Of a stretch of DNA of 64,000 nt, positions 49,466 through 52,040 are shown piece by piece (the first letter of the stretch is position 1; each line of letters opens with the position of its first letter). Made by a program: the position numbers and the translations under genes. Origin of the DNA: Phycicoccus sp. CSK15P-2 (GTDB lineage: Bacteria; Actinomycetota; Actinomycetes; Actinomycetales; Dermatophilaceae). Below the pieces are notes generated by a model. The model saw only the letters and a program-made list of their open reading frames with translations, did not search any database and was not told the origin of the DNA. The stretch lies in the NCBI RefSeq assembly GCF_016888005.1, contig NZ_JAFDVE010000025.1, positions 1 through 64,000 of the forward strand, given 5' to 3'.

Positions 49466-50638
49466 CTACTTGTCGACGTCCCCGACCACGAAGAACATCG
49501 AGCCCAGGACGGCGACCATGTCGGCGACGACGCAGCCCGGCAGGACCTCGGTGAGCACCTGGACGTTGCCGAAGGACGCCGAGCGCAGCTTGAGCCGCCA
49601 CGGGGTCTTCTCGCCCCGGGAGACGAGGTAGTAGCCGTTGAGCCCGAGGGGGTTCTCGGTGGCCGTGTAGCGCTCGCCCTCGGGCACCTTGAGCACCTTC
49701 GGGAGCCGCTGGTTGACCGGACCCGGCGGGAGGGAGCGAAGCCGATCGAGGCAGGCGTCGGCGAGGTCGAGGCTCACGTGCACCTGCTCGAGGAGGACCT
49801 CGAGCCGGGCCAGGCAGTCGCCCTCCGAGCGGGTGACGACCCGGCCCGGACCCGCGGGTCCGAACAGCTCGCCGTACGCGAGGTACGGGGCGTCGCGCCG
49901 GAGGTCGAGGTCGAGGCCGCTGGCGCGGGCGATCGGGCCGGACACGCCGTAGCCGAGGCAGGTCTCGCGGTCGAGGACCCCGACGCCTCGGGTCCGGGCG
50001 AGGAGGATCTCGTTGCCGACGAGCATCGACTCCAGGTCCGGCAGGCGGCGGCGGACGGCGGCGAGGGCGTCCGCGACCCGCCCGAGCCAGCCCGCCGGGA
50101 CGTCCTCCTTGAGGCCGCCGACCCGGTTGAACATGTAGTGCATCCGGCCGCCCGAGGCCTCCTCCATGACGGCCTGCAGCTCCTCACGCTCGCGGAAGGC
50201 GTAGAAGACCGGCGTGATGGCGCCGAGCTCGAGCGGGTAGGAGCCGAGGAACATCAGGTGCGACAGGACCCGGTTGAGCTCGGCGAGCAGCGTGCGCAGC
50301 CAGACGGCCCGCTCGGGCACCTCCATCCCGAGCATCGCCTCGACGCCGAGGACGACGCCGAGCTCGGACGAGAACGCCGACAGCCAGTCGTGCCGGTTCG
50401 CGAGCACCGTGATCTGCCGGTAGTCGCGGACCTCGAAGAGCTTCTCGGCGCCGCGGTGCATGTAGCCGATGACCGGCTCGGCGGTGACGATGCGCTCGCC
50501 GTCGAGGACGACCTTGAGCCGCAGGACGCCGTGCGTCGCCGGGTGCTGCGGGCCGATGTTGAGCACCATGTCGGCGGTCGCCAGACCACCTGCGCCGACC
50601 GCGACGTCGAGCGCGCGGGGCTCGGCGTCGGAGGTCAC
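49466..50638 (-). CDS. Stand-alone NuoD-type subunit (NADH-quinone oxidoreductase subunit D family)
   Basis: A 390-residue member of the 49-kDa/NuoD family. It has [20 protein letters not shown] (with the quinone-site His), [80 protein letters not shown] and the ending [20 protein letters not shown]. Arg62 of HRGAEKL matches the arginine dimethylated in mitochondrial NDUFS2. At the catalytic quinone Tyr of complex I (Y108 of NDUFS2) this protein has Trp85 (NRHDWLSAF). No other nuo gene is present here, so it is probably not the complex I subunit proper. GTG 50638 overlaps the methyltransferase stop (GTGA). Confidence 0.88.
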
Positions 50639-51603
50639 GTCCGCCAGTCTGCCGCACCGACCCGGCGCGCCACCCAGGCGAACCCGCCGAAGCCTCGCGG
50701 GTCGAGCAGGGAGGCGGCCGCCGAGGCGCGGGAGAGGGCGGCGAGGTATCCGGCGGGGTCGGTACGGGCGTCCTCGACGGATGGGCGGGCCGCGTCGACC
50801 CCGAGCCCGCGCAGGGCGTCGGCCTGGGTCGTCACCGTGTCGGCGGTGAGGCTGTCGACGGCGACGTGCGCCGTGAGGTCGCAGCCGCCGTCGGGTACGG
50901 GGTCGACGAGCGTCCCCGCGCGGTAGGCGACGAGCGAGCCGCCCGGCGGTCGGTTCCCGCGGGTGTGGCCGTAGTCGGCCGCGACGACCGTGCCGCGGCG
51001 CACCCGGCCCACGAGGTCGTCCCAGGCGCGGTCCCGGGCCAGCCCGACCTCGACGCGCGCGCCGTCCGGCAGGTCGTCCGCCGGCCAGTGAGCGGCGCAC
51101 CATGCGGCGTCGTCGGCTCCGAGCGGCGGTCCGGGGGTCTCGGCGCCGGTCACCGGGTCGACGAGCAGCGCGACGAGGCGTCCGCCCTCCACCCGGGCGA
51201 CGGTGCACGGGACGACGTCGAGCCACTCGTTGGCCACGACGAGGACGTCCTCGAGGTCGGTGAGGGCCCCCGGCAGCCCGGCGCCGCCGGGTGAGCGGAG
51301 CCAGGCGATGTCGTCGGGCAGCGCGCCGGGACGCTCGACGACGTCGACACCCGTGAGCCCCAGGTCGGGACGGGCGGCTCGTAGCGCCGTGAGAAGCTCG
51401 CCGCGTCCGGCCCCGACGTCGACGACGTGCACCGCACCCTCGCGGTCGGCGAGGCCGCCCAGCGCCTCCGCGAGGACCTCCCCGAGCGGCCCCTGGGCGG
51501 CGGTCGCGAAGTGCCCCGCGGGGCCGTCCGCCGCACGGTAGAAGCCCTCCGGGCCGTAGAGCGCGACGTGCCAGGCGTCCCGCCAGGGCAGCGGCTCAGC
51601 CAC
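50635..51603 (-). CDS. MidA/NDUFAF7-type SAM-dependent methyltransferase
   Basis: A 322-residue protein of the DUF185/MidA family. It opens [20 protein letters not shown] followed by [20 protein letters not shown], and has the SAM motif [16 protein letters not shown] (near 80), [12 protein letters not shown] (the conserved NEL/NEW region), [20 protein letters not shown] and a C-terminal domain with [13 protein letters not shown]. The mitochondrial homologue NDUFAF7 dimethylates an arginine in NDUFS2, the homologue of NuoD, whose gene here overlaps this stop by four bases. GTG 51603 follows GGAGG-rich sequence and overlaps the XRE gene by eight bases. Confidence 0.87.
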
Positions 51604-51808
51604 GGGCCCCTCCGTCCTCCGGGAGGTGGAAGAGCTCCTCGACGGTCGTGCCGAAGTAGCGGGCGAGGGAGATGGCGAGCGGGAGGGAGGGGTCGTACCG
51701 GCCCCCTTCGAGGGAGTTGACCGTCTGCCGGGAGACCCCGAGCGCCTCGCCGAGCGCGGCCTGCGAGAGCCCGCGCTCGGCCCGCAGGCGGCGGATGTCG
51801 TTCTGCAC
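51596..51808 (-). CDS. XRE-family helix-turn-helix regulator (70 aa)
   Basis: A 70-residue DNA-binding protein. VQNDIRRLRAERGLSQAALG then EALGVSRQTVNSLEGGRYDP is a complete HTH_3 domain, and the tail SLPLAISLARYFGTTVEELF followed by HLPEDGG is typical of the small Gram-positive XRE regulators related to YozG. These often form an operon with a small membrane protein, as here (the gene at 51810 lies one base upstream). It starts at GTG 51808. The perfect 32-bp palindrome at 52009-52040, before the operon, is its probable binding site. Its end overlaps the methyltransferase gene. Confidence 0.9.
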   Translation of the reverse strand: MQNDIRRLRAERGLSQAALGEALGVSRQTVNSLEGGRYDPSLPLAISLARYFGTTVEELFHLPEDGGARG

Positions 51809-51809
51809 C

Positions 51810-51995
51810 TCAGGCTCGCCTGACCGACACGACGGCGATGCCCCACACGGCGGTGAGGACGAGGACGACGACCAGGCCGACGAGGACCGCCAGACCGAAG
51901 ACCCACTCCCCGCGGGTCAGCGCCCAGACGCCCGTGGCGACGAAGAGCATCGAGTACAGGCGGTTGAACCAGCTGAGGCTGCGGAGCGTCTCCAT
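51810..51995 (-). CDS. Small two-helix membrane protein (61 aa)
   Basis: Sixty-one residues: METLRSLSWFNRLYSMLFVA, a first helix through TGVWALTRGEW, then FGLAVLVGLVVVLVLTAVWG as a second helix and the end IAVVSVRRA. This type of membrane protein is commonly coupled to a small XRE regulator. It may pass a membrane signal to it, but the function is not known. ATG 51995 lies behind CATAGT, a -10 box ending six bases away, so the transcript is probably leaderless. The palindrome at 52009-52040 covers the -35/-10 spacer. It is the first gene of the operon leading to midA and nuoD. Confidence 0.75.
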   Translation of the reverse strand: METLRSLSWFNRLYSMLFVATGVWALTRGEWVFGLAVLVGLVVVLVLTAVWGIAVVSVRRA

Positions 51996-52008
51996 GACCC
52001 GACTATGA

Positions 52009-52040
52009 CAAGCACCCTTGACATATGTCAAGGGTGCTTG
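52009..52040. promoter_or_regulatory. Perfect 32-bp palindrome, operator of the XRE operon
   Basis: Each 16-base arm reads CAAGCACCCTTGACAT; the two meet at ATAT and the whole is a perfect palindrome. It contains TTGACA in both directions (52018-52023 on plus and its mirror on minus), so it overlaps the -35 of the leftward operon and may also drive a rightward transcript with GACTAT at 52040-52045. Confidence 0.8.

Follow-up and report, generated by a model that had tools for sequence, protein, structure and literature searches.

What does a bacterial MidA-type methyltransferase modify when its gene overlaps the gene of a NuoD-type protein? In human cells, NDUFAF7 dimethylates Arg85 of NDUFS2 early in the assembly of complex I, and this mark probably stabilizes the contact with NDUFS7 (PMC3829151). 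Yarrowia requires the equivalent arginine for its cluster N2; in Thermus, NuoD has a threonine and an arginine of NuoB fills the same space (PMC8042128). Among bacteria, Arg65 of Nqo4 is dimethylated in Paracoccus denitrificans, whereas the arginine in E. coli is unmethylated (PMC3750175). A 2025 report, in its passages on MidA, describes the prokaryotic role as inferred in silico only, and gives as preliminary that Wolbachia MidA methylates DNA when expressed in E. coli (PMC12455994). Two accounts of Streptomyces list nuo2 genes (nuoA2, B2, D2, H2-N2) with nuoD2 apart from the cluster, and a separately placed nuoD2 is thus already known for this genus (PMC3765725, PMC8388888). An 11-subunit nuoABCDHIJKLMN enzyme without NuoEFG was described in 2024, and its electron donor was left open there (PMC11238625).

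Gene organization of the locus

We analyzed a stretch of 64,000 nucleotides from Phycicoccus sp. CSK15P-2, here called the window. The features at the locus are the following:

49466..50638, minus strand: nuoD2, predicted to encode the 49 kDa subunit (D) of a second enzyme resembling complex I; GTG start, 390 aa (Pfam, NCBIfam, tree and model)
50455-50453, minus strand: codon CGC of Arg62 in the motif HRGAEKL of NuoD2 (direct reading; alignment to solved complex I chains)
50384..50386, minus strand: codon of Trp85 of NuoD2, in RHDW as compared to RMDY in the canonical NuoD (alignment)
50635..51603, minus strand: midA, predicted SAM-dependent methyltransferase of the MidA/NDUFAF7 family (PF02636, COG1565); 322 aa, GTG start (profile and fold)
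50635..50638, minus strand: GTGA, four-base overlap of the midA stop and the nuoD2 start (direct reading)
51596..51808, minus strand: small XRE-type helix-turn-helix regulator, 70 aa (PF01381, E = 8.4e-16), overlapping midA by 8 bases
51810..51995, minus strand: protein of 61 aa without a Pfam match, in which two membrane spans were apparent by eye; its gene opens the apparent operon
52002..52031, minus strand: promoter-like TTGACA-18-CATAGT, by consensus match only, upstream of the four genes

Direct reading of the sequence confirmed two statements of the preliminary description, the overlap by four bases and Arg62 in HRGAEKL. The overlap reads GTGA at 50635-50638 and contains both the NuoD start and the MidA stop, and the codon of Arg62 is CGC. 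Its wording "fused in operon" has to be corrected, as the genes overlap and there is no fusion. The genes for the 61-aa protein, the helix-turn-helix protein, midA and nuoD2 form four closely spaced minus-strand genes, and midA and nuoD2 probably share a common transcript.

One flank of the pair contains Pfam matches to FolB/FolK and DUF6801, together with a gene that we take to be sortase-like. On the opposite flank are what presumably are a DUF2520-type gene and panC; the label DUF3180, used below for a gene of this neighbourhood, is likewise our assumption from the sequence. The midA-nuoD neighbourhood was found again in many families, suggesting that it reflects more than chance. In G082, a near relative, the midA match and the DUF2520-type match are only about 124 bases apart, at the place where the window has the helix-turn-helix and membrane-protein genes.

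Identity of the methyltransferase

The window MidA scored 51.9 bits against PF02636, over the curated cut-off of 23.3. The protein is divergent, with 18-24% identity to the solved members of the family, and a single-sequence search of solved structures gave no match. A profile built from 19 relatives matched the structures 4f3n/4g67, 1zkd and 5ztz, the last of which is the Dictyostelium NDUFAF7 homologue (E = 3e-49). The AlphaFold2 model had a pLDDT of 94.4, and the six best PDB matches in a Foldseek search were all COG1565/MidA structures (E = 1.2e-17 to 9.4e-16), followed by the next methyltransferase at E = 3.1e-5. These six matches, to the solved members 4g67, 4f3n, 5zu0, 5ztz and 1zkd, had TM-scores of 0.68-0.74, as normalized by query length. 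In the 19-row alignment, MidA has the SAM glycine motif together with NE..D, DY and D.TA, the conserved positions of the family, and these motifs are equally present in 4f3n and 1zkd according to the profile alignments. Thus, by sequence profile and modelled fold, the window protein is a member of the MidA/NDUFAF7 family.

The NuoD paralogue

The window NuoD matched PF00346 with an E-value of 7.7e-69 and contains the HRGxE motif. Of the NCBIfam models, NF004739 scored 365 (cut-off 360), TIGR01962 370 (cut-off 459) and NF008974 380 (cut-off 522). Two pieces, together covering most of the protein, aligned to complex I chains. Compared with the canonical NuoD, there is a gap of about 40 residues near the C-terminal part. 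The model of the window NuoD had a pLDDT of 84.7. Alignment to solved complex I chains places Arg62 at the site of Arg85 in NDUFS2 and Arg121 in Yarrowia.

The tyrosine in the RxDY motif of NuoD serves quinone chemistry. This tyrosine is replaced by tryptophan in the window protein and in a clade of 91 rows, here called NuoD2, and tryptophan was found in all 117 NuoD2 rows assigned to the clade, irrespective of whether MidA is present. Because of this replacement, we filed the window protein as a NuoD paralogue rather than as a canonical NuoD. All 91 Trp-type rows formed a single group with an SH-aLRT value of 99 in a tree from a quick search supported by SH-aLRT only. In this tree, family f5 grouped with Streptomyces and family f7 with Micromonospora. 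The window NuoD2 is 74-79% identical to the NuoD2 of Streptomyces and of family f5.

We also considered that NuoD2 might be a decaying gene, and rejected this. The identity between the Phycicoccus genome and genome G192 was 74% for NuoD2, as compared to 63% for the canonical NuoD and 45% for MidA, and further subunits of its complex are present in the genome. As a separate observation, six NuoD2 proteins of family f15 (L134-L139) have HRAAEK, in which alanine replaces the glycine after the arginine, with MidA located within 9 kb.

The second complex I-like gene set

The Phycicoccus genome contains two NuoD, one MidA match and two NuoH. The canonical NuoD is encoded in a nuo operon that also includes B, C, E, F, G, H and further genes, and has the motif GYLHTGIEK, with threonine where NuoD2 has arginine. 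The second NuoH is surrounded by NuoC2, H2, I2, L2, M2 and N2 at about 101.3-108.5 kb on contig C45, and NuoB2 and NuoA2 are found at about 122.3-123.1 kb on the same contig. No nuoD was present in this second set on C45 (A2 B2; C2 H2 I2 L2 M2 N2), and no match to J2 or K2 was obtained in the nuo2 locus L184. By its gene content, Nuo2 is a split set for a second complex I-like enzyme without the NADH-oxidizing subunits E, F and G, and the window NuoD2 is very probably its D subunit, as judged from the sequences. The term "stand-alone", by which NuoD had been described, is accordingly valid for the place of the gene only, since further subunits of a second complex are encoded elsewhere in the genome. 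The approximately 14 kb that part nuoA2-B2 from nuoC2-N2 (C45, about 108.5-122.2 kb; L184, L185) hold other genes, among which a long repeat-like protein and a MoxR-like ATPase were recognized by eye.

The set without a D gene was also observed in loci of families f1 (G082), f5 (G023, G162), f7 (G192), f14 (G006, G021) and f15 (G092, G059, G022). In these genomes, nuoD2 is located about 10 kb or less from midA, except in G022, where a contig end intervenes. MidA of G022 is in broken frames, with about 2.3 kb between it and the end of contig C1, and NuoD2, its frame also broken, stands at the very start of contig C2; the adjacency may therefore have been cut by the assembly. In MidA-less genomes of families f16, f31, f39, f47 and f65, nuoD2 stays in the operon with the motif HRGFEK. 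The same was seen in G040 (family f17), where MidA is located elsewhere in the genome. Wherever nuoD2 was seen outside the operon, MidA was either no more than about 10 kb away or on a different contig (G103, G022). In the NuoD tree, family f14 is separated from f15 and from the Actinomycetes, on a long branch with an unsure placement. By our reading of the tree, nuoD2 may have left the operon at least twice, if the placement of f14 holds and the operon state is ancestral.

Co-occurrence of MidA and the arginine

We surveyed 296 genomes of Actinomycetota, of which 78 contained MidA and 260 contained NuoD-type proteins; a NuoD-type match was present in all 78 MidA genomes. The arginine site was sought by a motif search in these 78 genomes and in 80 of the 87 MidA-less genomes with a strong NuoD. 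Most of the motif matches were assigned to NuoD by place and motif, and those in fetched loci were checked by alignment. Among the MidA genomes, 68 had an Arg-NuoD by the pattern, another six had HRAAEK and one had HRSVEK, giving 75 of 78. Genome G022, with a broken MidA at a contig end and the Arg motif, was moved from the MidA-less to the MidA-containing group, resulting in 76 of 79. An Arg-NuoD was thus found in 76 of 79 genomes with MidA, as compared to at least 28 of 79 without (27 by the pattern and one read later), with a Fisher p-value of 4e-17 that ignores relatedness. Genomes without a pattern match were examined more closely if they contained MidA; ten such MidA-less genomes that were read later showed threonine in nine cases and arginine in one, for one NuoD copy each and further copies aside. 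The three exceptions, G089, G196 and G244, have MidA but only a Thr-NuoD. The sequence GVIHRGEEK in G243 was left out of the NuoD count.

In a sample of 197 genomes from the class of the window, which overlaps the phylum sample, three or more PF00346 pieces were used as a proxy for a canonical NuoD plus a NuoD2. This was observed in 61 of 64 genomes with MidA and in 11 of 133 without. Family f79 was split along the same line (8/8 versus 0/11).

A search with the 19-row MidA profile against the 80 MidA-less genomes, with up to 25 candidates scored per genome, recovered a single MidA, the one in pieces in G022. The other matches listed were short and mostly covered the generic SAM motif. The possibility that divergent MidA proteins had been overlooked was thereby largely rejected, although a miss is possible.

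The arginine itself was rejected as a marker of methylation, since at least 28 MidA-less genomes have it and it is unmethylated in E. coli (PMC3750175). Arginine that persists without MidA proves nothing on its own, and its occurrence in these genomes and in E. coli suggests that it is useful also without methyl groups. HRGAEKL is present in the window as first described, but the HRGxEK motif alone is not diagnostic of the modification that had been read from it. The related proposal, that the arginine is kept in paired and lost in unpaired NuoD proteins, agrees with the difference between the two NuoD paralogues. It fails inside the NuoD2 clade, since all 117 Trp-type rows have the arginine with or without MidA. 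The retention of arginine in NuoD2 of the MidA-less genomes of f16, f31, f39, f47 and f65 likewise argues against a strictly dedicated pair.

Linkage of MidA to the two types of NuoD

In 46 of 74 genomes, representing 15 of 28 families, MidA and an Arg-NuoD were no more than 20 kb apart, whereas a Thr-NuoD was found within this distance in none of 56 genomes. The limit of 20 kb was our choice, and G171 is outside the 74 genomes. At a limit of 50 kb, the numbers were 48 of 74 and 9 of 56, respectively. The nine Thr-NuoD are explained by the two nuo operons adjoining each other in some families; in these nine genomes the canonical operon stands upstream of the second one. Together with the co-occurrence data, the linkage supports, by genome context, an association of MidA with the arginine-keeping NuoD, as earlier proposed, in preference to the canonical Thr-NuoD.

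The arrangement of the genes differed among families. In five of six f29 loci, midA directly follows nuoN of an 11-gene nuo operon with an Arg-NuoD, about 9 kb from nuoD, and it is also the next gene after nuoN of such an operon, at a similar distance of about 9 kb, in f62, f66, f23 and f56. MidA is more distant in the f29 genome G110 and follows some kilobases later in f33; for f44 and f61, the MidA-NuoD distance only was taken. In f9 (11 genomes) and several other families, MidA is on a contig other than that of NuoD2. Among the 31 named loci closest to the window NuoD2 (L204-L234, 68-85% identical), which include Knoellia, Terrabacter, Humibacillus, Streptomyces, Kitasatospora, Micromonospora and Actinoplanes, a MidA reading frame was found at a distance of at most 4 kb in 21, and two more show a MidA edge, in either orientation. 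The orientation also varies in family f5, where the genes remain within 9 kb. In the class of the window, the order folK-DUF3180-nuoD2-midA-DUF2520-panC is conserved in several relatives, which suggests that part of the linkage in this class is plain synteny.

Arginine and threonine in NuoB and NuoD

We compared the residue in NuoD with the corresponding site in NuoB, located by counting from the tandem cysteines with ligand numbers for Thermus that we take to be correct. Of 136 readable loci with both genes, 102 had threonine in NuoB and arginine in NuoD, 34 had arginine in NuoB and threonine in NuoD, and none was mixed. These numbers were obtained in successive reads of fetched loci (95 plus seven, and 23 plus four plus seven, respectively). 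They include ten loci from repeat genomes among the 102 (eleven if the identical L240 and L104 come from one genome) and one among the 34. The pairs in L018, L023, L025, L070 and L114, the NuoD of L256 and L261, and the NuoB in L288, L290 and L293 (three of ten late loci) were left out of the count. NuoB2 genes without a nearby NuoD had threonine in 12 of 12 loci, one of which is L144, indicating that NuoB2 matches the Arg-NuoD2.

The lack of mixed loci suggests that the arginine is supplied once per complex, by one subunit or the other. The threonine at this site in the canonical NuoD, and the exchange of arginine and threonine between NuoB and NuoD at every readable locus, are new here. From this exchange, the form of the N2 site used by a genome can be read by a simple rule.

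Proposed role of MidA and alternative explanations

The association of MidA with Arg-NuoD in occurrence and location suggests that MidA most likely methylates Arg62 of NuoD2 for the second complex. By homology to NDUFAF7 and from the genome context, MidA would put two methyl groups on Arg62, beside the iron-sulfur cluster N2. This would take place before NuoD2 and NuoB2 come together, in a way similar to the action of NDUFAF7 on NDUFS2. The window would then carry a displaced NuoD2 together with its own maturation enzyme. The canonical NuoD of the same cell would be left alone by MidA, as the canonical complex I offers no site: its NuoD has threonine and its NuoB brings the arginine. A more tentative possibility is that MidA is a sorting factor that keeps the two complexes I of one cell from mixing their subunits. 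Methylated Arg62, unique to the second complex, might in that case be the key that fits NuoB2 with its threonine and not NuoB1 with its arginine, and might adjust cluster N2 to a potential suited to an electron donor other than NADH. The move of NuoD2 from the nuo2 operon to the side of MidA, perhaps more than once, would have tied the modification to synthesis.

The two genes might instead be neighbours through an old conserved fol-pan neighbourhood, with another or broader target of MidA, protein or DNA, and shared ancestry behind their joint presence. The conserved gene order in several relatives, the location of MidA off the contig of NuoD2 in f9 and others, and the preliminary DNA methylation by the Wolbachia enzyme (PMC12455994) are all consistent with this. 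Yet in other classes MidA still stands beside an Arg-NuoD in the different context after nuoN, it was within 20 kb of a Thr-NuoD in none of the 56 genomes, the f5 genes stay together despite their varying orientation, and gain and loss coincide inside family f79. We consider this explanation rather unlikely. Still less likely, in our view, is that Arg62 is retained in its own right and stays unmethylated, with MidA being inactive or a chaperone-like assembly factor that binds NuoD2. MidA retains the SAM-binding glycine motif and the other conserved positions of the family, and the equivalent arginine is methylated in Paracoccus, which weighs against this idea; the presence of arginine in all Trp-type NuoD2, with or without MidA, and the unmodified arginine in E. 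coli speak for it (PMC3750175).

It is very unlikely that NuoD2 serves as an alternative, modified D isoform in the canonical complex I, by analogy with the proposal for NuoL2 and NuoM2 in Streptomyces, for which subunit exchange has been suggested (PMC3765725, PMC8388888). Both nuo sets do co-occur in the genomes that were read, in line with such an exchange. However, the arginine of NuoD2 would then face the arginine of NuoB1, a pair observed in none of the 136 readable loci, and a matching NuoB2 with threonine is present in the same genomes. For the preferred reading, methylation of NuoD2 by MidA, these genomes offer an internal control: two NuoD proteins per cell, with and without the arginine, and one MidA beside the arginine form.

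Comparison with known systems

The window pair resembles NDUFAF7 and NDUFS2 in the methyltransferase family, as judged by profile and fold, in the arginine motif of the 49 kDa subunit and, by analogy, in the supposed action early in assembly. It differs in that the target is part of a set that lacks NuoEFG, has tryptophan at the quinone tyrosine and is encoded by an adjacent gene, and in that the cell also has a canonical complex I with threonine at the site. The preliminary description suggested that the eukaryotic step descended from a dedicated bacterial pair; this is unsupported, and published work points to a proteobacterial origin (PMC9006661). The complex I of Paracoccus denitrificans similarly has a bacterial NuoD with arginine, for which methylation has been shown (PMC3750175).

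As in Thermus thermophilus, the canonical actinobacterial proteins have threonine in NuoD and arginine in NuoB (PMC8042128), whereas the window cell holds both arrangements. The second set is the same as the Streptomyces nuo2, with nuoD2 away from the cluster; in their passages on nuo2, those accounts leave the midA neighbour, the kept arginine and the NuoB2 match unmentioned (PMC3765725, PMC8388888). The 11-subunit enzyme also lacks NuoEFG but is encoded by one operon, in an anaerobe, and a term search of that paper gave no mention of a methyltransferase (PMC11238625). Among the papers listed in the literature searched, which covered few subscription papers, we found no account of MidA beside nuoD in actinobacteria.

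Additional observations

At positions 8265-11100 of L191 (G060:C1:444000-463900), the nuo2 cluster is reduced to NuoA2, B2, C2, NuoI2 and a NuoH2 fragment of 123 aa; no match to J to N was obtained within the 20 kb stretch, and NuoD2 and MidA are retained. This cluster may represent a remnant module. At positions 8924-10459 of L144, the genes for MidA and a lone NuoB2-type protein of the threonine form (PF01058, E = 5e-29) are arranged head to head, in a genome (G244) where a Thr-NuoD only and one NuoH were found.
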